From a virus: a stretch of 31,162 nucleotides of DNA. The DNA is taken from the IMG/VR virus record IMGVR_UViG_3300001847_000171, positions 1 through 31,162 of that record. One strand, written 5' to 3'. Of this stretch, positions 6,958 through 28,990 are shown one piece after another; positions within the stretch are counted from its first letter, which is position 1, and every line of letters begins with the position of its first letter. The position numbers and the translations under genes were made by a program. The notes under the pieces are model-generated. The model was not told where the DNA came from and made no database searches. It saw only the letters and a list, made by a program, of their open reading frames with translations.

Positions 6958-7238
6958 TGGCAGAAATTAAGTTTGATATCAATGCGATAATGAAGGAATA
7001 CGGTGACGATGATTTTGGGTTCACCGCAACTGATGAAGAAGAATATAATTCAGTTATCGCAGAAAAAGAAGATACTGTCCAAGAGTATAAAGATAGGTTA
7101 CAACAGGTAGAAAAGATTATATTGCCGTTTCTGACTAAATTGTTGAAGACGGCAGATCAACCTATCATTAAATGGCCAAATAGAAAAGCTACACTTGAAA
7201 CACAGATTCAAAAAATATTGAATTTGACACGAGGATAG
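6957..7238 (+). CDS. Small conserved phage protein, acidic N-terminus plus helical C-terminus
   Basis: A 93-residue protein coupled to the previous gene by a TAATG overlap. The first 40 residues are acidic and probably flexible. The remainder is helical, with a coiled-coil-like stretch and a conserved-looking TADQPIIKWPNRKA segment before a short C-terminal helix. I recall a similar small hypothetical in T4-like cyanophages, where it also contains an IxWPNR core, but no function is known to me. It closes the late nuclease/ligase-like transcription unit; the early promoter of the sugar module overlaps its last codons. Confidence 0.72.
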   Translation: MAEIKFDINAIMKEYGDDDFGFTATDEEEYNSVIAEKEDTVQEYKDRLQQVEKIILPFLTKLLKTADQPIIKWPNRKATLETQIQKILNLTRG

Positions 7239-7253
7239 ATATAAGTATATAAT
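7224..7253 (+). promoter_or_regulatory. Host sigma70-type promoter (TTGACA, 18-base spacer, TATAAT)
   Basis: A perfect -35 box TTGACA (7224-7229) and a perfect -10 box TATAAT (7248-7253) are separated by 18 bases. Transcription would start near 7260, just ahead of the TTGGAGA ribosome site and the ATG at 7272. In T4-like phages, promoters that match the host consensus this well are immediate-early. This suggests that the whole sugar module is switched on at the start of infection. The -35 lies inside the 3' end of the preceding gene. Confidence 0.8.
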
Positions 7254-7271
7254 TAACTGATTGGAGATATT

Positions 7272-8120
7272 ATGAAAGATTTGATTATAGGATGCTGTAC
7301 CAACTATGATTGGGATAAAATAAAGTTTTGGGTTAACTCAATCAATAAATCAGGGTTTGAAGGCGATAAAGTTATGGTCGCCTTCAATATCTCATACGAT
7401 ACTGTAAACAAGCTAACACAAGCAGGTTTTCAAGTATTGCTTCCAGGGCAAAAAGATGAAGAGCATAGCAGGTTCAACTATCAATCTAACTTGCCTGTCC
7501 ATGTAGAACGATTCATCCATATTTTTAATTACCTCAACGATAAAGAATATCGGTATGTAATCACAACCGATGTGAAGGATGTAGTATTTCAAAATAATCC
7601 ATCATACTTCTTGGAAGAAAATCTTGACAAAACTTCAAAGCAATTTATTTTTGCTTCTGAGAGTATGCTGTATAAAGATGAACCATGGGGTAATCAAAAT
7701 CTATTAGATACTTTTGGTCCTTTCTTCCATAACATCTTCAAAGAAAATGAGATTTATAATGTAGGTGTTCTTGCGGGTCGTGGTGATTCTATGAGAGATT
7801 TGGCCGCGATGATTTTTGCTATGTCATTGAATCGTCCTATTGCAATTGTAGATCAATCGACATTTAATTTTATGATATCACAAGAACCATATTTGTCAAC
7901 AAGCCTATATCTCCGTTCTGAAGATGCGTGGGCTTGCCAATTGGGCACAACTGCTGATCCCAATAAATTGCAGCAATTCAAACCATTCATACTAGAGCCG
8001 TTGCCTCGTTTAATTAACGGCAAAATTACAACATCTACGGGTGTTCCATTTACAATCGTGCATCAATATGATAGAGTACCAGCATGGAAAGAAATTATTG
8101 AGGTACAATATGCCGATTAA
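7272..8120 (+). CDS. Glycosyltransferase-like protein (GT-A fold suspected)
   Basis: First gene of the sugar module, 282 residues. The N-terminus (MKDLIIGCCTNYDWDKIKFW) and the pattern of a nucleotide-sugar fold, followed by YRYVITTDVKDVVFQNNP with a DxxD-like metal site, resemble GT-A glycosyltransferases that act on capsule or lipopolysaccharide sugars. Later come YNVGVLAGRGD and a VDQSTFNFM segment, which in such families flank the acceptor pocket. No signal peptide or membrane segment is visible, so it acts in the cytoplasm. Donor and acceptor are unknown. It has its own good ribosome site behind the sigma70 promoter and overlaps the next gene. Confidence 0.7.
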   Translation: MKDLIIGCCTNYDWDKIKFWVNSINKSGFEGDKVMVAFNISYDTVNKLTQAGFQVLLPGQKDEEHSRFNYQSNLPVHVERFIHIFNYLNDKEYRYVITTDVKDVVFQNNPSYFLEENLDKTSKQFIFASESMLYKDEPWGNQNLLDTFGPFFHNIFKENEIYNVGVLAGRGDSMRDLAAMIFAMSLNRPIAIVDQSTFNFMISQEPYLSTSLYLRSEDAWACQLGTTADPNKLQQFKPFILEPLPRLINGKITTSTGVPFTIVHQYDRVPAWKEIIEVQYAD

Positions 8121-8820
8121 AATAGCACTTTGCTTGTCTGGTCAACCTCGTAGCGTTGAACAAGGATATCAATTCGTTAAGAGAAATATCTTAGACGGCA
8201 ACGATGTTACTGTTTTTACTTTTTCTTGGGGTAAAGATAATCAAAACATACTTGATCTTTACAAACCAGTTTTGGCTAATGTAAGAGAACAAAATGTTGT
8301 TCCTGATTTTTCTCAATACACTAGATTTCCACCACCACAGCCAAATTGGAAAGTAAAAGACCCAAAACTATCTACTTGGTCGCAACTATATGCTATTGCA
8401 GGATGTAATGAACTGAAGTCGCAATATGAAAAAGAAAACAAAATGACATTTGATTGGGTCATTCGTTCTCGTTTTGATTTTGCAATCAATGTCAGAATAC
8501 CTTTTGATGAATTGAATAATTCTAAACTGTATATTCCAAATTGTCGTATGACGCCTGCAAGAGATTTTGGCAACGATCAGTTTGCATTTTCATCATCAGA
8601 AAACATGAACAAATATTCTGAATGCTTTCACCATATCAATAAATTTTACGATGAGGGTGTTCAGTATATGTGCGAAGATTTTATGAGTGCTAATTGGAAA
8701 ATGCATGGTCTTGTTGGCGAGAATCTAGTCTATTGTGATTTGAATCATCCGTTTCCACCCGGACCGTATAATGGTACATGGCACAGTTTGATTAGGACTG
8801 ATTTTGACAAATGGATTTAA
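8110..8820 (+). CDS. Second glycosyltransferase-like protein
   Basis: A 236-residue protein. I start it at the ATG preceded by GAGG inside the end of the preceding gene, because the product then begins with the typical strand MPIKIALCLSGQPRS; upstream in-frame methionines would add an unrelated tail. The motif FDWVIRSRFDF and the early SGQPRS loop recall cytoplasmic glycosyltransferase-like proteins from bacterial surface-polysaccharide clusters. The C-terminal part is rich in His, Pro and aromatic residues (LNHPFPPGPYNGTWHS). It has no membrane segment. Translation is probably coupled to the upstream glycosyltransferase-like gene. Enzyme class is likely, specificity is unknown. Confidence 0.65.
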   Translation: MPIKIALCLSGQPRSVEQGYQFVKRNILDGNDVTVFTFSWGKDNQNILDLYKPVLANVREQNVVPDFSQYTRFPPPQPNWKVKDPKLSTWSQLYAIAGCNELKSQYEKENKMTFDWVIRSRFDFAINVRIPFDELNNSKLYIPNCRMTPARDFGNDQFAFSSSENMNKYSECFHHINKFYDEGVQYMCEDFMSANWKMHGLVGENLVYCDLNHPFPPGPYNGTWHSLIRTDFDKWI

Positions 8821-8884
8821 TTTTTTTACAGTTATCAAAATTTATAAAAAACACAACTTCTTTAATTCGTGAGGACTTTGAAAA

Positions 8885-9601
8885 ATGGCTTCGTTAGTAA
8901 TATGCATGGCTGGTTTAAATACCAGATTTCACAATGTAGGATTTGATATACCAAAATATCTTCTACCATGGAAAGATGAAACTATCATCCATGAGATACT
9001 GAAAAATCTCAATTCATTTGATGATGTTGTTTTGGTTGCAAATAAAAGAGATGAATATTTTAGAGAAGAATTACTTAAAACTATTGAACCTCTTGGCTTG
9101 CATAGTGGAAATGTTATATACATCGGTGATACAGACGGTCAAGCACACACCGCATACATTGGTTGTTTGGCCTTGAAGAACCAAACAGATTCGTTCTTCA
9201 TTCATAATGCTGATACGATTTTGATGGGAAGAAATTTAAATAATATTTCTTTTGCAGATGCCTATATTGATGTATTCGTTGCAAACAATCCAAGTTATTC
9301 ATATGTCAGAACATCTGATGGATTAGCATTAGACATTGTAGAAAAGTCTGCGATATCTCCATTTGCAAGTTCTGGATTATACGGTTTCGAAAGTGGATAT
9401 TTTTATAAAGAATCGTATGAAAGTTTATTGTATCATTTTTCTGGAAAAGAAATGTATGTAGCAAGTGTTCTTTCAGATATAATTGAAAGAAAATATTCAG
9501 TAAATATTAATTCGTTATCAAGTGACCATGAAACTATAGTTCTTGGTACACCGCAAGAGTATGGAATAGAGATAACTAAACAGGCGATTAAAAAATGGTG
9601 A
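8885..9601 (+). CDS. Sugar- or alkyl-phosphate nucleotidyltransferase (NTP_transferase family)
   Basis: A 238-residue protein that would join an NTP to a phosphorylated sugar, cyclitol or alcohol. The N-terminal MAGLNTRF followed by IPKYLLPW is the family signature: the nucleotide-binding loop, then Pro-Lys. IHNADTILMG carries the metal-binding Asp of the NAD/GD motif. It lacks the left-handed helix domain of GlmU-type enzymes and matches the short LicC/RmlA-like group. The stop overlaps the start of an APH-fold kinase, the same kinase plus nucleotidyltransferase pairing as LicA/LicC, so the pair probably phosphorylates and then activates one substrate. A 64-base AT-rich gap with a weak promoter-like sequence lies upstream. 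Confidence 0.85.
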   Translation: MASLVICMAGLNTRFHNVGFDIPKYLLPWKDETIIHEILKNLNSFDDVVLVANKRDEYFREELLKTIEPLGLHSGNVIYIGDTDGQAHTAYIGCLALKNQTDSFFIHNADTILMGRNLNNISFADAYIDVFVANNPSYSYVRTSDGLALDIVEKSAISPFASSGLYGFESGYFYKESYESLLYHFSGKEMYVASVLSDIIERKYSVNINSLSSDHETIVLGTPQEYGIEITKQAIKKW

Positions 9602-10548
9602 AATTAAAAGGTGGTTCTCTTAGTTCAACATACCTGATGGAGAACGAAAAAGGTAAATTTGTTCGCAAGATGGTCAGCACAAAAGAGAATAGAGAGTATG
9701 GTTACATGCGTTGGTATTCGCAGATGAAGAAAATACAACGATATAATACTGATTTTACTAATCTATATCCTCAAATCATAAAAGTTTCTTGTGAGGGTGA
9801 TCAAGCATATTTTGACCTTGAATACTTGAAAACATATAAAGACATTAAGACAATTTTCTGTGAGAGAGAATTGACAGAAAAAGAATTAAATAAAATCAAT
9901 GATGCTATTTGGAATGCTTTTTATCAAATGCATCGTTACACTTATGATTCTAATCCTGGTGCACCACTACTTTACTTTCGAGAAGAAGTAGAACAGAAAC
10001 TTGAAGATGCCAAGAAGTTTCCTGAGTTTCTAGAATTCTTTAACTATGGTACATATCAGTATTATGGTGGTATAGTTCATGGTATAACCAATTACATGGA
10101 TGAAATGCGTAACTTTTTCTCTGAAATGAAATTGATTGAAGAAGAAGCAATTCACGGTAATCCAACACTTGAAAACATCATGTATTCTTTTACCGATGAT
10201 TGTGTTAAGTTTGTTGATCCATATGAAGAAAGTGTTATTGACACCAGATTCTTAGACTATGCTCAGGTACTACAATGCTCAAGAAGTTGGTATGGCATCA
10301 CCAATGATGGTAATGTAAGTGTAAATGAAAATGTTGTGAATAGTGATATTATTGTACCTAAAAATTTCAGAGAGTTTAATAAAATATTTGAAAGACAGAT
10401 TGCTAAACCAGTAATGAAGCAAATGGTAGATGTTTTAGAGGCAACACAATTTATCCGTATGTTACCATTCAAGTTGGCCGCAGGTGATATAGATAAAGCT
10501 AAGTATTTCTATGTTCATGCATGTTCTTTAATGAGACAATTATTCTAA
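9595..10548 (+). CDS. APH/choline-kinase-fold phosphotransferase with altered catalytic motif
   Basis: A 317-residue protein of the aminoglycoside phosphotransferase / LicA kinase fold. Near the N-terminus a KGGSLSSTYLM loop looks like the nucleotide-binding turn, and FVRKM offers the ATP lysine. The catalytic loop reads IHGNPTLENIMY (residues 186-197), where the family normally has HGDxxxxN: the catalytic Asp is Asn189, while Asn194 is kept. VKFVDPYEES provides the metal-binding Asp208. The substitution could reduce activity, shift specificity or mark a pseudokinase. It overlaps both neighbours, the nucleotidyltransferase and the cyclase, so the three are probably made in step. Confidence 0.78.
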   Translation: MVKLKGGSLSSTYLMENEKGKFVRKMVSTKENREYGYMRWYSQMKKIQRYNTDFTNLYPQIIKVSCEGDQAYFDLEYLKTYKDIKTIFCERELTEKELNKINDAIWNAFYQMHRYTYDSNPGAPLLYFREEVEQKLEDAKKFPEFLEFFNYGTYQYYGGIVHGITNYMDEMRNFFSEMKLIEEEAIHGNPTLENIMYSFTDDCVKFVDPYEESVIDTRFLDYAQVLQCSRSWYGITNDGNVSVNENVVNSDIIVPKNFREFNKIFERQIAKPVMKQMVDVLEATQFIRMLPFKLAAGDIDKAKYFYVHACSLMRQLF

Positions 10549-11684
10549 TGAAAAATAATGTTCTAGTGAATTTTAACAATTTTAAGAGAACTTGGAATGT
10601 TGAATCTTCGCTTCCAGTTAATTTTACAATTCATTATTCAAGTGATATATTCAACCCACAAAATCTAGATTTGATTGAATATGGCAAAAGTAAACGCAGA
10701 ATCGTTGTTGTAGATAAGACGGTTCACGAAATCTATGGCGAAAACATAAAATCATATTTTGAATCTATTAAGTTTGATTTGAAACTTAAAATTATAGATG
10801 CCACAGAAGAAAACAAAGATTGGAAACATACAGATGAAATATTACAATTCTTTGAATCAGAAGGCGTATTGAGGCGTGAGAGTATTATTGTAATTGGTGG
10901 TGGCGTATTGCTTGATTTGGTAGGATTCTGTTGCAGTATCTATCGTAGAGGCATTCCTTACATCAAAGTTCCAACCACACTTCTAGCAATAGTTGATGCA
11001 TCGGTTGGTGTCAAAGTTGCTGCTAATCATTTTGGTCGTAGAAACAGAATCGGCGCATATTACCCTCCAATTGCTACTTTGATTGATAAGAAATTTATAC
11101 ACTCACAATCAGAGAGGGAGATTGTCAACGGCATCGCAGAAATATTTAAACTTGGTCTGATCAAATCAGAAGAATTGTTTGAGTTGCTTGAAAATAACTA
11201 TGATCAATTATTAAGAGAGAAGTTTCAGTTTGGTGCCATACCTGTTCGTGTCATTAACATGGCTATCACAGGCATGATTGAAGAATTGGAACCTAATCTG
11301 TGGGAAAAAGATTTAGAAAGACCCGTTGATTTTGGACATACATTCAGTCCTTTGATTGAAATGAACAACATTCAAAACTTAAAGCACGGTGAAGCCGTAG
11401 TATTAGATTGCTTATTGTGTTCATGTATATCATTCAATCGAGGATACATCAACGAAGAAGAATTGAAACGCATATTTGATACGGCTAAAAATTTGAAACT
11501 GCCAACTTGGCATAGAGATTTTGCTAATAAAGAACTTGTTTTTGCTGCACTTGAAGATACCATGAGACACAGAAATGGCAATCAATACATTCCTATTCCT
11601 GTTGGTATAGGTCGTTGTGCAATCATAAACAACCTGAAAGAAGAAGAATTGATTAGTGCCATGAATACTTTTGAGGGTATATGA
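10548..11684 (+). CDS. Sugar-phosphate cyclase, 2-epi-5-epi-valiolone synthase-like
   Basis: A 378-residue member of the 3-dehydroquinate synthase superfamily, which uses NAD and zinc to close a sugar phosphate into a carbocycle. I start it at the ATG overlapping the upstream stop (TAATG). VIGGGVLLDLVGF (residues 115-127) is the NAD-binding loop. Zinc ligands are Glu198 in AEIFK, His264 in DFGHTFSP and His280 in KHGEAV. True AroB proteins read GHTxGHA here; the DFGHTFSP form and the VKVAANHFGRRNRIGAYYPP segment are those I associate with 2-epi-5-epi-valiolone synthases, which cyclise sedoheptulose 7-phosphate. Related cyclases (gadusol or MAA type) cannot be excluded. Its kinase, nucleotidyltransferase and dehydrogenase neighbours fit a C7-cyclitol pathway. 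Confidence 0.85.
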   Translation: MKNNVLVNFNNFKRTWNVESSLPVNFTIHYSSDIFNPQNLDLIEYGKSKRRIVVVDKTVHEIYGENIKSYFESIKFDLKLKIIDATEENKDWKHTDEILQFFESEGVLRRESIIVIGGGVLLDLVGFCCSIYRRGIPYIKVPTTLLAIVDASVGVKVAANHFGRRNRIGAYYPPIATLIDKKFIHSQSEREIVNGIAEIFKLGLIKSEELFELLENNYDQLLREKFQFGAIPVRVINMAITGMIEELEPNLWEKDLERPVDFGHTFSPLIEMNNIQNLKHGEAVVLDCLLCSCISFNRGYINEEELKRIFDTAKNLKLPTWHRDFANKELVFAALEDTMRHRNGNQYIPIPVGIGRCAIINNLKEEELISAMNTFEGI

Positions 11685-12352
11685 AAACTGTTATAATTAC
11701 TGGAACAAGTAGTGGACTTGGTCGTTCACTCGCAGAATGTTTTTTGAAAAATGGATTTCGTGTTATGGGTCTATCAAGAAGTAAATTTGTAGACCAAATA
11801 CATCATATTAATTATTCGCATCATAATTGTGATATCACAAATTTGCAAGCGATAATAAACTTTAGTATGATCATCAAACAACCTATCGACCTTCTGATTC
11901 ATAATGCAGCATCGTTTTCGTTGCAGAAATTTGAAAAAGAATCTAATTATAAAATAAGTCAGATGATTGAAACGAATCTAAAGGCACCTATGATTTTAAC
12001 AGGTCAGATGTTGCCATTTATGAAAGAAGGTTCTAAGATATTTTTTATCAACTCTGTGGCAGGACTTGAAGAAATAGAAAATCAATCTGTTTATTGTGCG
12101 ACAAAATATGGCTTGACTGCTTTTGCTGGTGTTCTAGGTAAAGAATTAAAAGATAGAGGTATCAAAGTTACAAGTTTTCATCCAGGCGGAATCGATACGC
12201 CATTGTGGGACAATATAGGGTTTCATGCTGATACAAGTAAACTACTTGATCCAAATGATGTAGCAGAGTTAGTTTTAAATACCTATAATGCACCTAAAAA
12301 CATGGTACTTAAAACTGTGCAATTTTTTCCTGATATGGAATGGCACCAATGA
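11681..12352 (+). CDS. Classical short-chain dehydrogenase/reductase (SDR)
   Basis: A 223-residue cytoplasmic NAD(P)-dependent oxidoreductase. The N-terminal ITGTSSGLG gives the TGxxxGxG cofactor loop (Gly8, Gly12, Gly14). HNAA replaces the usual NNAG, and Asn99, Ser125 in INSVAG, Tyr138 and Lys142 in YCATK complete the catalytic tetrad. HPGGIDTPLW is the usual segment after the active site. Placed directly after the cyclase (ATGA overlap), it probably oxidises or reduces a hydroxyl or ketone of the cyclitol product, as dehydrogenases do in acarbose-type pathways. The substrate is inferred from context only. Confidence 0.88.
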   Translation: MKTVIITGTSSGLGRSLAECFLKNGFRVMGLSRSKFVDQIHHINYSHHNCDITNLQAIINFSMIIKQPIDLLIHNAASFSLQKFEKESNYKISQMIETNLKAPMILTGQMLPFMKEGSKIFFINSVAGLEEIENQSVYCATKYGLTAFAGVLGKELKDRGIKVTSFHPGGIDTPLWDNIGFHADTSKLLDPNDVAELVLNTYNAPKNMVLKTVQFFPDMEWHQ

Positions 12353-13071
12353 GTTTGATACCAAATAAACATTTGTTTCTAGTAACATCTACTTTGAATG
12401 CAAACATCGGTGTATTCGATCATGAAACTCGTCTTAATCAGACACTTGAAACTTTGAGAGTTTTAAGAGCGAAAGTGCCTGATGCTATTATTGTTTTGAC
12501 GGATTCATCACCAACTATAGTTCCAGATTCTGTTGCAAATGAACTATCAAAAAGTTCAAATTTGAACATTATGTTCCAACAAGATCAAGATTTGGTAACT
12601 CTTGCGAATGCTGGTCTGAAATCACAAGCGGAAATAATTCTCTTGCATAAAACACTATCAATCATAAAATCAAATGCCGATTTATTGAAGATGCTATCAA
12701 GTGTTAAGAGAATACACAAATTATCAGCAAGAACAAATTTGACGAATGAATTTGATATTAGCCGATATGATGACGATTCTCTGTATGGCAAATATACATT
12801 CAAGAAAAGAATGCCCTCCTGGCTTCCTATTGATGTTAAAATGACAACTGAGGCTGATCACTTGCTTATAACTAGGATGTATTCTTTTTGCATTTCGTTA
12901 CTGGACAATTATTTTTCTCTTTTACCTGAAATTTATAAGACCGTAAACGAATGCGGTATTGATACTGAACACGCACATTATAAGCACATAGATAAAAAGT
13001 ATCTGATTGAATTTGATAAAATACATTGCCAAGGAACTATGGCATCTACTGGAATGATGGAAACATATTGA
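12349..13071 (+). CDS. Unrecognised protein of the sugar module, possibly glycosyltransferase-related
   Basis: A 240-residue protein I do not recognise with certainty. I use the second ATG, which overlaps the SDR stop as ATGA; an ATG three codons upstream is also possible. The first 60 residues alternate strand and helix (HLFLVTSTLNANIG, then DAIIVLTDSS), like the start of a nucleotide-sugar-binding fold. The C-terminal part ends with a His/Cys-containing segment (DKIHCQGTMASTGMMETY). There is no signal peptide or membrane segment. It lies between the SDR and the RfbH-type dehydratase with no gaps, so it is very likely part of the same pathway, perhaps as a transferase. Confidence 0.6.
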   Translation: MSLIPNKHLFLVTSTLNANIGVFDHETRLNQTLETLRVLRAKVPDAIIVLTDSSPTIVPDSVANELSKSSNLNIMFQQDQDLVTLANAGLKSQAEIILLHKTLSIIKSNADLLKMLSSVKRIHKLSARTNLTNEFDISRYDDDSLYGKYTFKKRMPSWLPIDVKMTTEADHLLITRMYSFCISLLDNYFSLLPEIYKTVNECGIDTEHAHYKHIDKKYLIEFDKIHCQGTMASTGMMETY

Positions 13072-13072
13072 T

Positions 13073-14356
13073 ATGATTGATGAAAAAATTAAAGAGTTAG
13101 CTAAACTAGCTAAACCAAAATATCTTCCCAACTACGATTCATTTGAGCCAGGTAAAGATTATGTCTTCTACTCAGGTCAACTGTGGGATGAAAAAGAGAT
13201 TGAATTAGCACTCAAGTCCTTTCTAACTGGAAAATGGGTGACAGCCGGTGAAAATTGTGAGAAGTTTCAAATCAGATTTTCTAAAAAGTTTAATGTAAAA
13301 CAATCTCACATGGTGAATTCTGGCAGTTCTGCCAATCTTGTTATGGCTTCAGCATTGAAAAAATATCACGGTTGGAAAGATGGTGATGAAGTTATCGTTT
13401 CTCCTGTAGGATTTCCTACAACGATTGCACCATTCATGCAAAACAATATCAAACCAGTCTTTGTTGATATTGAATTCAATACTTTGAATTTTGATGTAAA
13501 TCTTATTGAATCGAAAATTACACCAAGAACACGAGGCATTGTAGTATCTCCTGTTATGGCTAATCCGCCTGATATGGATAAACTTTTAGAGATATGCCAT
13601 AAGCACAAGATACTTTTGATTGGTGATAATTGTGATTCTCTTGGAACAAAATGGAATGGCAATCTCATAACAGATTTGTATTACAGTTGGACAACATCTC
13701 TTTATCCTGCACATCATATTTCGACTGGTGAAGGCGGTATGATTTCGTCTAATGATTCTGCATTTATTGATATGGCTAGATCGATTAGTTGGTGGGGAAG
13801 AGACTGTTACTGTATAGGTTCAAACAATACACTGCCATGCGGAACTTGTGGTAATCGTTTCGACCAATGGCTTCCAGGTTATGACGGCATCATCGACCAC
13901 AAATACATTTTCACCCATGCAGGCTACAACTTGAAGCCTCTTGATTTGCAAGGTGCTATTGGTGTTGCACAGCTAGAAAAATTTGATTACATTCATCAAA
14001 AGCGCCAAGAGAATTTCAAACGACTATCAAATCTGCTAGTTAAATATTTGGATGTTCGTATACCTACTGTTCTACCTGGTGCTGATCCCTCTTGGTTTGG
14101 TGTGCCAGTTATTTGTGAAACACAAGAGCGAAAAGAAAAACTGGTATCATACCTAGAAGAGAAGAAAATTCAAACGAGAAATTATTTTGCAGGTAACATA
14201 TTGTTGCATCCAGGATTCAAACATTTGGATGATCATACTAAGTATCCTCTATCTAACAAGGCTCTATCTCATGTTTTCATTTTAGGTTGTCCGCCATTTT
14301 GGAACGAATCTGTATTTAATTATATTGAAGAGGTGTTAAAATCATGGCATCAATAA
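13073..14356 (+). CDS. RfbH/E1-type PLP and [2Fe-2S] sugar 3-dehydratase
   Basis: A 427-residue DegT/DnrJ-fold enzyme. In aminotransferases of this fold a lysine binds PLP; here the loop reads SLYPAHHISTGEGG and histidine (His214) takes its place, the mark of 3-dehydratases such as E1 (AscC/RfbH) and ColD. Asp185 in GDNCD binds the PLP pyridine nitrogen. Cys187, Cys245, Cys247 and Cys256 give C-x57-C-x-C-x8-C, nearly the C-x57-C-x-C-x7-C [2Fe-2S] motif known from E1, so the Fe-S type is favoured over ColD. E1 makes 3,6-dideoxyhexoses by removing the 3-hydroxyl of CDP-4-keto-6-deoxyglucose and needs a flavin/Fe-S reductase (E3), which is not in this window. The true substrate may differ here. 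Confidence 0.9.
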   Translation: MIDEKIKELAKLAKPKYLPNYDSFEPGKDYVFYSGQLWDEKEIELALKSFLTGKWVTAGENCEKFQIRFSKKFNVKQSHMVNSGSSANLVMASALKKYHGWKDGDEVIVSPVGFPTTIAPFMQNNIKPVFVDIEFNTLNFDVNLIESKITPRTRGIVVSPVMANPPDMDKLLEICHKHKILLIGDNCDSLGTKWNGNLITDLYYSWTTSLYPAHHISTGEGGMISSNDSAFIDMARSISWWGRDCYCIGSNNTLPCGTCGNRFDQWLPGYDGIIDHKYIFTHAGYNLKPLDLQGAIGVAQLEKFDYIHQKRQENFKRLSNLLVKYLDVRIPTVLPGADPSWFGVPVICETQERKEKLVSYLEEKKIQTRNYFAGNILLHPGFKHLDDHTKYPLSNKALSHVFILGCPPFWNESVFNYIEEVLKSWHQ

Positions 14357-14532
14357 TTGATCAAAAAAATTACAAGTTGACTATAGAGAAGAAAGACACT
14401 ATTCCTTCTGAGTTGAAGCATTTGATTTTCAATAAAGAATCGTTTGACGATGAAGGCAAAACAATTTCTAAAAGCAAATTGGAATTGTTTATCTCTGATT
14501 CAGACATTCAAAAAATAAAAGATATACTATGA
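14344..14532 (+). CDS. Small unrecognised protein inside the sugar module
   Basis: A 62-residue hydrophilic protein with no motif I know. GAGG lies eleven bases before the ATG, within the end of the dehydratase gene, and its stop overlaps the epimerase start (ATGA), so the DNA has room for nothing but this frame. Predicted short strands at the start (KNYKLTIEKK) and a C-terminal helix (DSDIQKIKDIL) suggest a small folded protein, perhaps a subunit or stabiliser of one of its neighbours. It is too short, and has no phosphopantetheine-type DSL site, to be a clear carrier protein. Confidence 0.6.
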   Translation: MASIIDQKNYKLTIEKKDTIPSELKHLIFNKESFDDEGKTISKSKLELFISDSDIQKIKDIL

Positions 14533-15347
14533 GCATCCAAATATTTGGAGGCAATGGCTTCGTTGGCTCTGCATTTGTCGCAAAGAATCAAGATTGTGTA
14601 GTTAAGCCACGATATGATCATACCATAGATACAGATAAAGATGTTTTATACATGATATCTACGGTGACAAACTATAATATGAAAACTGATCCGTATATCG
14701 ATATTGAAACCAATTTGCTTTTGTTAATGAAGATTTTGAATCGTTTCAAGTATACTGATAAAGTTTTCAATTTCGTAAGTTCTTGGTTTGTATACGGCGA
14801 TACAGAAATGCCTGCAACAGAAGAATCGTATTGTAATCCTACAGGCTTTTATTCAATTACAAAACGATGCGCCGAACAGTTGTTGATTTCTTACTGTAAA
14901 ACTTTCAATATAAAGTACCGTATCTTGCGTTTGGCAAATGTATCTGGTTATGGCGACAAGAAGGCATCACCACAGAAAAATGCATTACAGTATATGATCA
15001 ATGAATTAAAAGAAGGTCGTGATGTAAATGTATATGATGGCGGAAATATGTATCGTGATTACATTCATGTGAATGATGTTGCTGATGCTATGAAATTGAT
15101 AATTGAAAAAGGTGAATTGAATTCTATCTATAATGTTAGCAATGGTGAACCTTTGTTATTTAAAGATATGATTGAATACGCTAAAGAGTTAATTGGTGGT
15201 GAAGGCAGATTGAACAACATTCAAGTGCCTGATTTCCACAAGATAGTTCAAGTGCATAGTCAATGGATGAAAAATGATAAGTTGAAAGCATTAGGTTATG
15301 AACCCAAGTATGATATGAAAGCAATTATTGAAGATATGGTCAGATGA
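14529..15347 (+). CDS. NAD-dependent epimerase/dehydratase (extended SDR)
   Basis: A 272-residue extended-SDR enzyme acting on nucleotide-activated sugars. FGGNGFVG gives the GxxGxxG cofactor loop (Gly7, Gly10, Gly13). VSSWFVYG supplies the serine, and Tyr108-x-x-x-Lys112 in FYSITK is the catalytic pair. GNMYRDYIHVNDVA is the conserved substrate/dimer segment of this family. It is shorter than GalE or RmlB (about 330), mainly in the first third. In this module it probably epimerises, reduces or dehydrates the activated intermediate, together with the RfbH-type enzyme. The exact reaction cannot be read from the sequence. Confidence 0.88.
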   Translation: MSIQIFGGNGFVGSAFVAKNQDCVVKPRYDHTIDTDKDVLYMISTVTNYNMKTDPYIDIETNLLLLMKILNRFKYTDKVFNFVSSWFVYGDTEMPATEESYCNPTGFYSITKRCAEQLLISYCKTFNIKYRILRLANVSGYGDKKASPQKNALQYMINELKEGRDVNVYDGGNMYRDYIHVNDVADAMKLIIEKGELNSIYNVSNGEPLLFKDMIEYAKELIGGEGRLNNIQVPDFHKIVQVHSQWMKNDKLKALGYEPKYDMKAIIEDMVR

Positions 15348-15991
15348 ATTTAAAAATATATCAATCTTATTATCTAGAAGAACAGATCAAAGAATTAGAT
15401 TCAAATTTAATTCCATACGACAATACTAAAAATTCTAATCCTGAATTAAGAGAGTTGCCGTTGTGGAAAGATTTATTGGAAAAACACAAAGATTCTGATG
15501 CACATTGGGGTCTATTATCTTGGCGCTGGTCACAAAAAACAGATGTTCGTCCTTTGATATTTAAAGAATGGATTCTATCAAATCCAGGCTTTGATGTTTA
15601 TCATTTAGATCCATTCTCTCATTTACCAGCAGAATTTCCTAATCTATGGATACAAGGAGAAGTTTGGCATCCAGGTATGTTAGAGTTCGCAAGAAAGTTG
15701 TTTGTGAAATTGGGAATCGAAGGCTCAGTAGAACAATACAAATATCTACCTGATGATTTTGCCACTTGTAATTATTTTGTAGGCAATAGTAAATTTTGGG
15801 TGAGTTATCTTAATTTTGTTGATAGGTGTCTCACTTATTGCCAAGAAGATGAATCGATGTTCCGATACATATACAAAGAAGGACAGCAATACAATGGACA
15901 TTTTGTTCCATATTTTTCGTTTGTTGTCGAGAGATTGTTTTCAATGCATAACATACTAAACAGACATATAAAGGTTATAAAATTCAAATGA
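15344..15991 (+). CDS. Putative glycosyltransferase-like protein, DUF4422-type C-terminus
   Basis: A 215-residue protein coupled by ATGA overlaps on both sides. AHWGLLSWRWSQKT near residue 55 and the aromatic-rich middle are unlike any enzyme I can name surely. The ending, FVPYFSFVVERLFSMHNILN, resembles the tail of DUF4422 and related surface-polysaccharide glycosyltransferase-like proteins, which close with a GFxxERLxxxx helix. There is no signal peptide. Its place after the epimerase suggests it transfers or handles the finished sugar. Treat the glycosyltransferase label as a weak inference from the C-terminal pattern and context. Confidence 0.55.
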   Translation: MNLKIYQSYYLEEQIKELDSNLIPYDNTKNSNPELRELPLWKDLLEKHKDSDAHWGLLSWRWSQKTDVRPLIFKEWILSNPGFDVYHLDPFSHLPAEFPNLWIQGEVWHPGMLEFARKLFVKLGIEGSVEQYKYLPDDFATCNYFVGNSKFWVSYLNFVDRCLTYCQEDESMFRYIYKEGQQYNGHFVPYFSFVVERLFSMHNILNRHIKVIKFK

Positions 15992-16767
15992 TTAATGAAT
16001 TTAATTGTGAACAGTTGAACAGACAATATGAAAATGGAAAGCCATTTAAGAATTGTATCATAGATGATTTTTTTGATCACAATACTGCTTTGAAACTTTC
16101 GAATGAGTTTCCAGACTATAATGATGACAAGATATGGGCAATCTATAGTAATGCGATTGAAAATAAACGATTGACTCCTAATTGGGGTCTATTTCCAGCT
16201 ACAACATACAAAGCATTTACTCTGATGAATACTCCAGAATTCATCGAAAAAATAAAAAGAATAACGGGAATTCCAAATCTTGTTGCCGACTACGGTATGC
16301 ATGGCGGAGGTTGGCATGTAAGTAAAAATGGCGGAAAACTCAATATGCATAAAGATTACTCTATCCATCCTAAGTTAGGCATGGAAAGACGAATCAATCT
16401 TATCATATACATGACACCTAACTGGAACAAAAACTGGAATGGAGGTCTAGAATTGTGGTCGCATGATTCAGAGAAGAATTTACCAAAAGAATGCGTTACA
16501 AAGATAGAAAACCTGTTCAATCGGGCTGTTATTTTTGATACCGCTGACAATTCTTGGCACGGACTACCCAAAGAAATAGAATGTCCTGAAGGTGTATATC
16601 GTAAATCTTTGAATATTTACTATGTCGCTGAAGCAAGACCAGAAGCCGAACCTCACGATAGAGCATATTTTGCGCCATACGGAGAACAAGCGAATGATCC
16701 TAAAATATTAGAATTAATTAAGAAAAGATCCAGTTCAAAAACATCGTCAGAAGTTTATAGGACATAA
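15988..16767 (+). CDS. 2OG-Fe(II) oxygenase closing the sugar module
   Basis: A 259-residue prolyl-hydroxylase-like dioxygenase. Iron ligands are His121-x-Asp123 in LNMHKDYS and His191 in NSWHGLP; Arg205 in VYRKSLNIYY is placed to hold 2-oxoglutarate. GGLELW between them is typical of the double-stranded beta-helix. It differs clearly from the oxygenase at 4310. As the last gene of the module, coupled to the one before, it may hydroxylate the sugar/cyclitol product or its acceptor, but this is context only. A late-type promoter overlaps its stop codon, marking the end of the early unit. Confidence 0.87.
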   Translation: MINEFNCEQLNRQYENGKPFKNCIIDDFFDHNTALKLSNEFPDYNDDKIWAIYSNAIENKRLTPNWGLFPATTYKAFTLMNTPEFIEKIKRITGIPNLVADYGMHGGGWHVSKNGGKLNMHKDYSIHPKLGMERRINLIIYMTPNWNKNWNGGLELWSHDSEKNLPKECVTKIENLFNRAVIFDTADNSWHGLPKEIECPEGVYRKSLNIYYVAEARPEAEPHDRAYFAPYGEQANDPKILELIKKRSSSKTSSEVYRT

Positions 16768-16809: not shown

Positions 16810-19011
16810 ATGAGATTTAAAGATTTTTTGACCGAACAAAAAGAAAAACATGCTGTCCTAGCATTTGGACGCATGAATCCTCCTACCACAGGACACGAAG
16901 TTCTAGTCAAAAAAGTTCATGATGTTGCTAAGGAAGTAGGAGGTTCTCATCATGTTGTCCTATCGCACTCGCAAGACGCTGCAAAAAATCCTCTCTCAGC
17001 AGAGCAAAAAGTCAAACACGCTAAGAGATTTTTCCCTAGCACAAATATTTCCGTTTCCGATAAAGAACATCCAAACTTTTTATCTCAAGCTGCGAAACTT
17101 CATAAACAGGGCGTAACACATCTTCACATGGTCGCTGGTTCAGACCGTGTGCCTGAGTATCACAAACTTCTACACAAATACAATGGCACCCATGAAGGTG
17201 CGTTGTTCAATTTCAAACACATCAAAGTTCATTCAGCCGGTGAAAGAGACCCTGATGCTGAAGGAACAGCAGGTATGTCTGCATCTAAAATGAGAAGTCA
17301 TGCTGCCGCCGGTAACTTTAAAGAATTCAAAAAAGGCATACCTGCTCATGTAAAACACGAACACGCAAAAGAATTGTATAATGATGTTCGTAGCAATATG
17401 AAAACCAACGAAGATATCGACCAAGATTTTGAACAGCTATTGAATGAGGGTGTTCACGATAAAGGTATTTTCAAAGCAGTATTTCTTGCAGGTGGTCCTG
17501 GTTCTGGTAAAGATTATGTTTTAGATAACACATTAGCTGGACACGGTCTAACTGAAATCAATTCAGATAAAGCACTAGAATATCTAATGGACAAAGAGAA
17601 ATTAGATAAGACTATGCCCGATAGTGAAGAGAAACAAAGAGATGTTGTTCGTGAAAGAGCAAAAAGTATGACTGAGTTGCGCCAGCGTTTGGCTCTGCAA
17701 GGTCGCAATGGTCTTATCATTAATGGCACAGGTGATGATGCTGAGAAAATTAAAAGAATTAAAGATAAGTTAGAAAAGTTAGGTTATGATACTTCTATGA
17801 TTATGGTCAATACTGCTGATGAAGTATCAAAACAGAGAAATATTGAAAGAGGTATGCATGGCGGTCGAACAGTACCTGAAAAAATTCGTAAACAAAAATG
17901 GGATAATGTTCAAGCATCTCGTCCAGAGTTTGCAAAAATGTTTGGCAATAGTTATATGGAGTTTGATAACTCTGAAGACCTAAGAAAAGCAGAACCTGAG
18001 ATAGTGAAAGCTAAAAAAGAAGAGATGACTTCTTTATTTAAAGCTATTCAAGATTTTGTTGCACAAAAGCCAAGTTCAGAAAATTCAAAGCAATGGGTTG
18101 CAAACGAATTAGAAAAGAAAGATACTTTGCCTGTCAAGCAAGGCGGTGCTGAAAAAGTTCCTCATCAAAATTCAAAAGCAGCAGATCAGGCTAAGAAACT
18201 TGGTCTAAGTTACTATGGTTTTGGTCGTTATGGTAAAAATGGTGAAGTTACCTATCGATCTGTGCATGATGAATTAGTTCAAGTTCAAAAACAAAAAACA
18301 CCTAATACAAACCTAAAAGAGTGTTATTCATTTTCAGATTCTGGTGCATTAAACTTGTTATTGCTAGGCAATTCAATTGATGAAATAGATTTAGATCCAG
18401 TTGAAGAAGGTAATAAATTAAATAAAGTCAAATTGATGCGTGACAGTAATGGTAAAGTAAGAACCTTTATGTTACGCCGTGCTGCTGCAAAAGAAGCGCA
18501 CCAAAAGAATGGTACAGTCATGCCTTATAAAAATGGCTATGTTATTAAAATAAATGAGGAGAATGAAAATGTTAAGCAAACTATGGAATTGGTTGAACAA
18601 ACCGGTAGGACAGAAAGTAGAAGAATCTCTACCAACGATTCAGGTAGTAGAATCTCCGAAAGTAGAAGCGCCAGTAGCACCAGTAGCACAGGTGGAAGTT
18701 ACTCAGGAACAGCCCGCAAAAAAATCACGCTCCAAGAAATCAGGAAGCAGAAAGAAAAAGTCTTAATCGAATCTATCGATAGAGGTATTGAACCTGGTCT
18801 TTCTATGGCATCTTCTGGTGAAAACTTTAGTCGCGGTATAGATAGAGATATGGCAACAGATGGAAAAAAATACAGTCGTGATTCAAAGAAAAGAACCATC
18901 AAAGAATTAACTGGTGATGAAACTACCATGAGCATTGGTGATAAGAAAGAAGATGAATTGAAAAAAGTAGGAATCAGTTTAAAATCTTTTAAAGCAAAGA
19001 AATTCGTATGA
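16810..19011 (+). CDS. Capsid-targeted fusion: HxGH-type nucleotidyltransferase plus P-loop kinase
   Basis: A 733-residue multidomain protein. MRFKDFLTE (1-9) matches the T4 capsid-targeting pattern. Residues 13-195 form a nucleotidyltransferase of the HIGH superfamily: NPPTTGHE (T26-x-G-H29) and the distal GMSASKMR (S157-R162), as in NMN adenylyltransferases. A linker ending LLNE at 213 leads to a P-loop kinase, with Walker A GGPGSGKD at 228-235 (Asp replaces the usual Ser/Thr) and an Arg-rich lid near ERGMHGGRTVPEKIR. This order recalls NadR (NMN adenylyltransferase plus ribosylnicotinamide kinase), though the kinase looks more like zeta-toxin/PNK types. The part after about residue 420 is modular and unassigned; residues 587-652 are overprinted by a second gene in the +1 frame. 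Confidence 0.8.
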   Translation: MRFKDFLTEQKEKHAVLAFGRMNPPTTGHEVLVKKVHDVAKEVGGSHHVVLSHSQDAAKNPLSAEQKVKHAKRFFPSTNISVSDKEHPNFLSQAAKLHKQGVTHLHMVAGSDRVPEYHKLLHKYNGTHEGALFNFKHIKVHSAGERDPDAEGTAGMSASKMRSHAAAGNFKEFKKGIPAHVKHEHAKELYNDVRSNMKTNEDIDQDFEQLLNEGVHDKGIFKAVFLAGGPGSGKDYVLDNTLAGHGLTEINSDKALEYLMDKEKLDKTMPDSEEKQRDVVRERAKSMTELRQRLALQGRNGLIINGTGDDAEKIKRIKDKLEKLGYDTSMIMVNTADEVSKQRNIERGMHGGRTVPEKIRKQKWDNVQASRPEFAKMFGNSYMEFDNSEDLRKAEPEIVKAKKEEMTSLFKAIQDFVAQKPSSENSKQWVANELEKKDTLPVKQGGAEKVPHQNSKAADQAKKLGLSYYGFGRYGKNGEVTYRSVHDELVQVQKQKTPNTNLKECYSFSDSGALNLLLLGNSIDEIDLDPVEEGNKLNKVKLMRDSNGKVRTFMLRRAAAKEAHQKNGTVMPYKNGYVIKINEENENVKQTMELVEQTGRTESRRISTNDSGSRISESRSASSTSSTGGSYSGTARKKITLQEIRKQKEKVLIESIDRGIEPGLSMASSGENFSRGIDRDMATDGKKYSRDSKKRTIKELTGDETTMSIGDKKEDELKKVGISLKSFKAKKFV
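18569..18766 (+). CDS. Nested 65-residue protein in the +1 frame of the fusion gene
   Basis: A small gene wholly inside another. GAGGAG sits seven bases before its ATG. The product begins with an amphipathic MLSKLWNWLNKP, continues with a Val/Pro/Ala/Glu repeat-like middle (APVAPVAQVEV) and ends in a basic tail (KKSRSKKSGSRKKK). Wobble bases in this frame are mostly A, as elsewhere in the genome. In the host frame the same DNA gives a Ser/Arg/Thr-rich low-complexity stretch with many C-ending codons (ACC, ATC, AGC, TCC), foreign to the neighbouring codons. This indicates that selection acts on the nested frame. The function is unknown; the composition suggests a DNA- or core-associated small virion protein. 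Confidence 0.65.
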   Translation: MLSKLWNWLNKPVGQKVEESLPTIQVVESPKVEAPVAPVAQVEVTQEQPAKKSRSKKSGSRKKKS

Positions 19012-28653: not shown

Positions 28654-28958
28654 TGGCAACTACAGCAGAACGATTAGGCATCGTTGAAACCAAGGTAGAA
28701 AACCTTGGTGAGAAAATGGATGAAATCAAGGTAGATGTGCGTGAAATGCATGATTGCCTTGATAGAACCCGTGATGACTTGACAGAGAAACTTGATAAGA
28801 TGTATAATGCATCTTGCGACCAACACGCGGCTTTATCAAAAGAATTAGATGGTCTTAAAAAAGATAAAGATCGGATAGTTTGGATCGTAGGCGGTGCTAT
28901 TGCTGTATTGGGATGGTTATCTGGACATTCGGATAAGATTCTAGCACTATTTCATTAA
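28653..28958 (+). CDS. Coiled-coil protein with C-terminal membrane anchor
   Basis: A 101-residue protein. The first 70 residues form a heptad-like coiled coil (VETKVENLGEKMDEIKVDV; DDLTEKLDKMY) with two cysteines. A single hydrophobic segment near the end (VWIVGGAIAVLGWLSG) would anchor it, followed by a short tail. The build is like XhlA-type holin-associated proteins or small phage membrane regulators. It is the last gene of the lysis cassette; the primase promoter starts three bases after its stop. Assignment to a named family is uncertain. Confidence 0.72.
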   Translation: MATTAERLGIVETKVENLGEKMDEIKVDVREMHDCLDRTRDDLTEKLDKMYNASCDQHAALSKELDGLKKDKDRIVWIVGGAIAVLGWLSGHSDKILALFH

Positions 28959-28961
28959 TCG

Positions 28962-28990
28962 TTGACAACCCTTAGTGGTTGTGTTATATT
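28962..28990 (+). promoter_or_regulatory. Host sigma70-type promoter (TTGACA, 17-base spacer, TATATT) before primase
   Basis: A perfect -35 box, the ideal 17-base spacer and a five-of-six -10 box lie in the 40-base gap before the primase. The start point would fall near 28996, two to four bases before the primase ATG, so the transcript would be leaderless or nearly so; indeed no ribosome site is visible. It would make the primase-thyX-nrdA block an early unit separate from the lysis genes. Confidence 0.75.
28965..28982 (+). promoter_or_regulatory. Inverted repeat in the promoter spacer, possible operator
   Basis: ACAACC and GGTTGT form a perfect 6-base dyad around a 6-base centre, lying between the -35 and -10 boxes. 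A dimeric repressor bound here would block the polymerase. As an RNA hairpin from read-through of the lysis genes it has no following T-run, so a terminator is less likely. Confidence 0.45.

Follow-up and report, generated by a model that had tools for sequence, protein, structure and literature searches.

Organization of the locus

The window, that is, the whole stretch of 31,162 nucleotides analysed here, belongs to a T4-like water phage. Its UvsX is nearest to those of Phage C48C1 and of Stenotrophomonas, Xanthomonas and Caulobacter phages, and for the lineage's polymerase and capsid the nearest proteins are from cyanophages. A typical cyanophage feeding the cyclase described below through its own transaldolase was considered and rejected, as neither psbA nor a transaldolase is found in 18 long relatives.

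Twelve plus-strand ORFs, designated A to L, span positions 7272-16767. The first-pass annotation had described twelve overlapping genes; the number holds and most of them overlap or abut, but gaps of 64 nt and 1 nt separate B from C and G from H, respectively. The features are as follows.

7224-7253, + strand: promoter, sigma-70-type, exact match TTGACA-N18-TATAAT with an 18-nt spacer
7272-8120, + strand: A, glycosyltransferase-like, shared frame (weak GT_PLOD/Nucleotid_trans matches in homologues)
8113-8820, + strand: B, DUF7796 protein, shared frame (Pfam 1.1e-6; adjoins both kinds of unit)
8815-12360, + strand: exchangeable unit C-D-E-F, no blastn similarity to L267/L268 although the flanks on either side align
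8885-9601, + strand: C, nucleotidyltransferase opening the exchangeable unit (PF00483)
9595-10548, + strand: D, APH-fold protein with HGN replacing HGD (Pfam matches of homologues, AlphaFold2 model)
10548-11684, + strand: E, predicted EEVS-type sugar phosphate cyclase (Pfam, solved relatives, residues, tree)
11681-12352, + strand: F, SDR, proposed cyclitol ketone reductase (adh_short)
12340-13071, + strand: G, GT-A-fold protein, shared frame (AlphaFold2 and Foldseek)
13073-14356, + strand: H, RfbH/E1-like 3-dehydratase, optional block (3bcx)
14344-14532, + strand: I, 62-aa ORF, optional block (ORF call)
14529-15347, + strand: J, epimerase-family SDR, optional block (Pfam 4e-30)
15344-15991, + strand: K, optional block, no family matched (ORF call)
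15988-16767, + strand: L, 2OG-Fe(II) oxygenase, optional block (PF13640, 4.1e-14)

The promoter had been proposed as a host-consensus one. The match is indeed exact, and two sites of this type occur in the window for 0.06 expected, but none was found upstream of A in relatives, which rules out an early promoter as a conserved feature. The view that the cassette is expressed early in infection rested on this match, and early expression is not supported.

Genes A, B and G constitute a frame shared between loci, and some of them are glycosyltransferase-like. Homologues of A match GT_PLOD and Nucleotid_trans weakly (best 4e-4, under the cut-off) and conserve a TTDVKDV motif; A has at least 556 viral relatives, most of them outside cyclase loci. 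The AlphaFold2 model of G (pLDDT 91.8) matches glycogenin in Foldseek (7e-7).

An exchangeable unit of four genes

In almost all viral loci E has C, D and F as its neighbours, and when loci were sought with D, E came directly after D in all 69. The flanks align at 75-81% nucleotide identity with those of two close relatives (L267 and L268), whereas exactly C-D-E-F is replaced there by a rival unit composed of an APH kinase, a nucleotidyltransferase-HAD protein and an epimerase. One unit is carried by 62 rows of the comparison and the other by 21, with both found together in none. The twelve genes had been taken for a single pathway. Because exactly C-D-E-F is exchanged and the two units never mix, the pathway comprises four genes rather than twelve.

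The anticipated co-occurrence of cyclase, kinase, nucleotidyltransferase and dehydrogenase was recovered in dozens of phage contigs, the kinase being recognised by its fold only, and the unit has so far been seen only in viruses. Two outcomes had been named beforehand as refuting, namely a grouping of the cyclase with AroB and a lack of co-occurring neighbours, and neither was observed. The arrangement resembles the nucleotide-sugar and glycosylation islands of T4-like phages (A-B-[unit]-G, as in L267) in its slot, its flanks and its kinase, nucleotidyltransferase and SDR steps. Unlike these islands, C-D-E-F also makes the ring, by means of the cyclase E, so that the donor it yields may be something other than a true sugar.

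Putative activating and reducing enzymes of the unit

C and F correspond to the NTP-transferase and the SDR recognised at first pass. C matches the NTP_transferase family (3.5e-8) and the solved relative 4evw (1.7e-15), with conserved GxNTRF..PKYLLP, GQA and HNADT motifs. F matches adh_short (2.1e-35), and the active-site Ser, Tyr and Lys of SDRs are invariant in its viral set.

D had been called an APH-fold kinase, of which the fold is borne out whereas the catalytic Asp is missing. D itself has no Pfam match above the cut-off, but APH (2.8e-7) and fructosamine kinase (9.2e-7) are matched by its homologues. The best match of its AlphaFold2 model (pLDDT 93.8) is APH(2'')-Ia (E-value 7e-6, TM about 0.5). 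Besides this fold, D has in common with APH(2'')-Ia and other small-molecule kinases of its kind the Lys, the Asn and the metal-binding Asp that are conserved in the kinase motifs; it differs from them by an Asn in place of the catalytic Asp, and the identity is only about 14%. Among 73 distinct homologues, the HxD motif reads HGN in 72 and LGN in one, whereas HGD is kept in bacterial homologues and in the kinase of the rival unit. A search of 398 genomes of one bacterial phylum returned five weak matches to D, all HGD and in longer proteins, and isolated phages yielded none. D may thus be an atypical or a dead kinase, and the replacement of its catalytic Asp makes a kinase step by D uncertain.

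The optional block

Downstream of G, the DegT-type protein H has RfbH as its best NCBIfam model (365 bits, under the cut-off of 423), in line with its earlier designation as an RfbH-type 3-dehydratase. It aligns over its full length with the E1/RfbH CDP-6-deoxy-glucose 3-dehydratase (3bcx, 3bb8; E-value 2.8e-74 for 3bcx), including the E1-region cysteines and a PAHH motif in which His stands in place of the aminotransferase Lys. The epimerase also announced is J, and K matches no family. Unlike the E1/RfbH system, H is optional and untied to the cyclase, and neither an E3 reductase nor a 4,6-dehydratase was recognised among the cassette ORFs searched in the window.

H and J-L are absent from most cyclase loci and adjoin the non-cyclase unit in L267/L268. 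The block H-L is therefore optional and is found with the rival unit as well, which rules out H as a cyclitol dehydratase; the deoxy-cyclitol product suggested at first does not follow.

The cyclase and alternative readings of the unit

E displays the DFGHTFSP form of the zinc site noted previously and matches DHQ_synthase (1.2e-33) and DHQS_C in Pfam. As the annotation had supposed, it is predicted from residues, tree and scores to be a valiolone-synthase-type sedoheptulose-7-phosphate cyclase and not AroB. Among solved relatives, ValA scores best (282.8 bits), ahead of DDGS (211) and DHQS (at most 129). E198, H264 and H280 are invariant and common to ValA and DDGS. Two fingerprint sites distinguishing EEVS from DDGS have been described (PMC4426668), and at both of them (D261 and H341) all 23 viral sequences are EEVS-like. 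Over the EEVS/DDGS columns, the viral consensus carries the EEVS residue in 19 of 24. E thus resembles the ValA/AcbC-type EEVS of actinobacterial C7-cyclitol clusters in residues, metal ligands and score, but differs from them in an identity of about 40% and in its separate, virus-only clade. This clade groups 97 contigs and forks with EEVS (support 92/95); as it is deep, the stereochemistry of the product could differ from that of EEV. No relative above 46% identity was found in the bacterial genomes scanned, and a search for near-identical DNA was negative. The weak sister sequences L087/L089, checked for a cellular context, have no matching C, D or F. Isolated phages give only unlike matches to E, which in their best places stay under 30% identity or, at about 32%, are short; where annotated, these proteins are named 3-dehydroquinate synthase.

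A phage AroB boosting the shikimate pathway is scarcely conceivable: among NCBIfam models E scores highest with TIGR01357 (aroB), but the 213 bits lie under the cut-off of 305, the EEVS/DHQS columns show the EEVS residue in 10 of 11 and the DHQS residue in none, and the viral cyclases branch far from, and outside, DHQS. Residues, tree and model scores together rule out this reading. The deep viral branch leaves more room for a DDGS-like or new sedoheptulose-phosphate cyclase, with the unit making another C7 compound, perhaps a soluble small molecule. Such a compound could resemble gadusol or the mycosporines, or be a cyclitol with a novel stereochemistry. A grouping of the viral sequences with DDGS is not rejected by the AU test (p 0.10) and the DDGS residue occurs in three of the 24 columns, yet the fingerprint sites make this reading unlikely. 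Moreover, the nucleotidyltransferase of the unit and its transferase-like shared neighbours favour a glycosyl donor.

As relatives carry an ordinary sugar-activation unit at the same locus, E might also act on another sugar phosphate, e.g., a hexose phosphate as in a DOIS-like enzyme, leading to a six-carbon cyclitol donor. This is improbable given the EEVS-type residues of E and the 77 bits scored by 2-deoxy-scyllo-inosose synthase, far below ValA. Also improbable is a role in DNA modification comparable to glucosylation in T4, which the T4-like setting and the GT-A-fold proteins adjoining replication genes would suggest. PF00303, the dCMP/dUMP hydroxymethylase family, is present in none of the T4-like relatives with gp23, up to 172 kb, which rules out T4-style DNA glucosylation, and the window has ThyX instead. 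Other modification chemistries keep a small probability, and a role of the unit in DNA modification is on the whole highly improbable.

Proposed pathway

C-D-E-F (8885-12352) are almost always linked and are exchanged together; with this gene content, EEVS-type residues in E and motifs that are intact in C, E and F, the unit probably makes a nucleotide-activated carbocyclic sugar, its most likely product being a nucleotide-activated C7 cyclitol donor. We infer the substrate, the order of steps, the nucleotide, the transferase, the acceptor and the benefit of this pathway. E would convert host sedoheptulose 7-phosphate to a valiolone-type cyclitol ketone with release of phosphate, and F would reduce this ketone. 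A hydroxyl of the cyclitol would then be phosphorylated by D, or by another kinase if D is inactive, before C converts the cyclitol phosphate to an NDP-cyclitol. The cyclitol moiety could then be passed on by transferases among the frame genes (A and/or G, perhaps B). As acceptor, a glycan of the phage or of the host surface is more likely than DNA.

In acarbose biosynthesis, GDP-valienol arises through steps of the same kinds, among them those of a kinase and a nucleotidyltransferase (PMC9200736). That pathway differs in having epimerase, 7-kinase and phosphatase steps, so that C-D-E-F represents a four-gene short form, in which the kinase-fold protein has HGN.

Possible implications for phage glycan diversity

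Antibiotic-like pseudosugars and the sunscreens of animals are the known settings of valiolone-type cyclases, and carbocyclic "false sugars" are known from acarbose and validamycin. The papers searched for valiolone, carbasugar or cyclitol pathways of phages describe no such case. More tentatively, the virus-only lineage might place a carbocyclic false sugar on virions or on the host surface, activated by the Asn-for-Asp kinase-fold enzyme; glycosidases cannot split such a moiety in the usual way. Surveys of metabolic genes in viruses would be led astray if E were labelled a dehydroquinate synthase. A kinase-fold family consistently devoid of its catalytic Asp poses a pointed question, and four small genes make the pathway testable in vitro. 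If the proposed pathway is true, the existence of such an exchangeable unit for cyclitol activation would imply that glycan diversification by phages extends beyond true sugars.

Gene Content of the Locus

The IMG/VR virus record, of 31,162 bases, carries a run of twelve plus-strand ORFs, A to L (7272-16767), downstream of genes for a T4-type DNA polymerase, UvsX and gp41 helicase. The ORFs overlap or abut apart from two short gaps, 64 nt from B to C and 1 nt from G to H. The run, with its cyclase and the families named in the first-pass annotation, is confirmed, and family searches gave the following:

A, + strand, frame gene: weak glycosyltransferase signals
B, + strand, frame gene: DUF7796
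C, 8885-9601, + strand: nucleotidyltransferase
D, 9595-10548, + strand: no family above cut-off
E, 10548-11684, + strand: sugar phosphate cyclase
F, 11681-12352, + strand: SDR
G, + strand, frame gene: no family match
H, + strand: RfbH-like
J, + strand: epimerase-like
L, + strand: 2OG-Fe(II) oxygenase

The AlphaFold2 model of G (pLDDT 91.8) matches glycogenin and the transferase domain of lysyl hydroxylase 3, with a PBCV-1 capsid glycosyltransferase ranking lower. Beyond L, a gene at 16810-19011 encodes a protein of 733 aa that combines a cytidylyltransferase-like part with a zeta-toxin/AAA-type kinase part; in relatives, this gene delimits the variable slot on the right.

An Exchangeable Four-Gene Unit

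In viral loci, C, D, E and F are adjacent almost without exception, and a search with D found it followed by E in all 69 loci, many of these contigs having also been found with E. The co-occurrence of cyclase and neighbours expected in related phages thus holds. Gene A is far commoner than the cyclase (at least 556 relatives), and a search with it revealed that the slot between the frame genes also holds other contents. Two such loci, L267 and L268, are 75-81% identical to the window DNA as far as 8814 and once more from 12361 onward, with no similarity between. C-D-E-F is replaced there by genes for an APH-family kinase whose loop is the normal HGD, a HAD-domain nucleotidyltransferase and a nucleotide-sugar epimerase/dehydratase. 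Among the loci compared, the B-to-G slot contains C-D-E-F in 62 rows, this rival unit in 21 and both in none, a few contigs being counted twice.

Since either unit occupies the slot between B and G, genes A, B and G are common to both. A minority of cyclase loci carry H-L after G, as do L267/L268; these genes therefore constitute a third, independent block. The core of the pathway proposal thus holds, but narrowed from twelve genes to a putative four-gene cyclitol-activation unit, C-D-E-F.

Loci L161-L170 form a variant group with a divergent C and, where annotated, a cupin and a RuBisCO-like gene between C and D. The latter (L161:7763-9040) encodes a RuBisCO-like large-subunit protein (PF00016, 2.5e-43) and is adjoined by a small cupin-like ORF; ORFs of similar size lie at this position in L162, L164, L166, L167 and L169, the profile search having covered L161. 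A third slot content, a HAD phosphatase fused to a nucleotidyltransferase, occurs with other genes in another relative (L317:4581-5951).

Class and Distribution of the Cyclase

The best solved relative of E is the EEVS ValA (282.8 bits), ahead of desmethyl-4-deoxygadusol synthase 5tpr (211 bits) and dehydroquinate synthases (at most 129 bits). The structure of ValA yielded 14 fingerprint sites, and two active-site positions part bacterial EEVS from DDGS (PMC4426668). Phage E and all 23 viral sequences compared carry Asp and His at these two positions. We take them to be ValA D281 and H360, in agreement with the alignment (Asp/Ala and His/Thr). The DFGHTFSP motif of E comprises the first of them and a metal-binding His, and the motifs of E are intact.

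That the cyclase is an AroB is very unlikely: of the 11 columns separating EEVS from DHQS, 10 show the EEVS residue in the viral consensus and none the DHQS residue. Of the 24 columns separating EEVS from DDGS, 19 match EEVS and 3 match DDGS. Both sets of columns were picked from our own sequence sample, most members of which are EEVS by similarity only. In the tree, viral cyclases form one clade (100/99) that shares a fork with EEVS (92/95), lies outside DDGS and is remote from DHQS. A grouping of virus with DDGS was not rejected in a reduced tree (AU p = 0.10), which leaves the tree by itself undecided between EEVS and DDGS; the residues favour placing the viral cyclase with EEVS.

Cyclase relatives were found in 97 IMG/VR contigs, of which 80 were kept. 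A single scan across the genomes of 84,980 bacterial and archaeal species returned 236 relatives, the best 80 of which are all at most 46% identical and mostly actinobacterial EEVS-like. Closer cellular copies are likely absent, although this is not proved, because the scan demanded that one of two peptide patterns be matched exactly. Of 18 long relatives, 8 were found to carry gp23, the major capsid protein of T4 type, including those of 172, 162, 146, 136 and 103 kb; psbA and transaldolase were found in none of the 18.

Promoter and Timing

Early expression from a host-consensus promoter had also been proposed. An exact sigma-70 match does lie at 7224-7253 and exceeds chance, with two exact sites in the window against 0.06 expected; in the relatives checked, the region ahead of A yielded no strong match. 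Early expression is plausible because the cassette is located among replication genes. The second exact site (TTGACA-N18-TATAAT) is at 28779 on the + strand, near a primase gene at 28975.

Proposed Route and Role

Most likely, C-D-E-F supplies an activated donor, since activation units are exchanged beside the same transferase-like genes. A route to GDP-valienol has been described (PMC9200736), and the phage enzymes C-F fit a short form of it. By this analogy, E would form a cyclitol ketone with release of phosphate, F would reduce the ketone, D would phosphorylate the reduced cyclitol and C would add the nucleotide. The motifs of C and F are intact.

D is the weak link of this route, and its activity cannot be assumed. 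Its AlphaFold2 model (pLDDT 93.8) best matches aminoglycoside phosphotransferases; TM-scores near 0.5 for the D and G models indicate a common fold, not a common substrate. Where the kinase fold has its catalytic Asp, D carries Asn (N189), as does essentially every viral homologue: of 73 distinct homologues, 72 have HGN in this loop and the remaining one LGN. HGD stands instead in the kinase of the rival unit and in the bacterial homologues that were recovered. Simple decay of D is disfavoured, as the Asn is conserved and other kinase residues are kept. The nearest PDB profile matches, JAK2 kinase chains that also carry HGN (E 0.05, not significant), are in line with a pseudokinase-like site.

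As to the acceptor, the T4-like relatives lack the hydroxymethylase family, which makes a T4-type DNA modification unlikely. Because the donor unit changes from one close relative to another, we lean towards a donor that may serve virion glycosylation or a change of the host surface.
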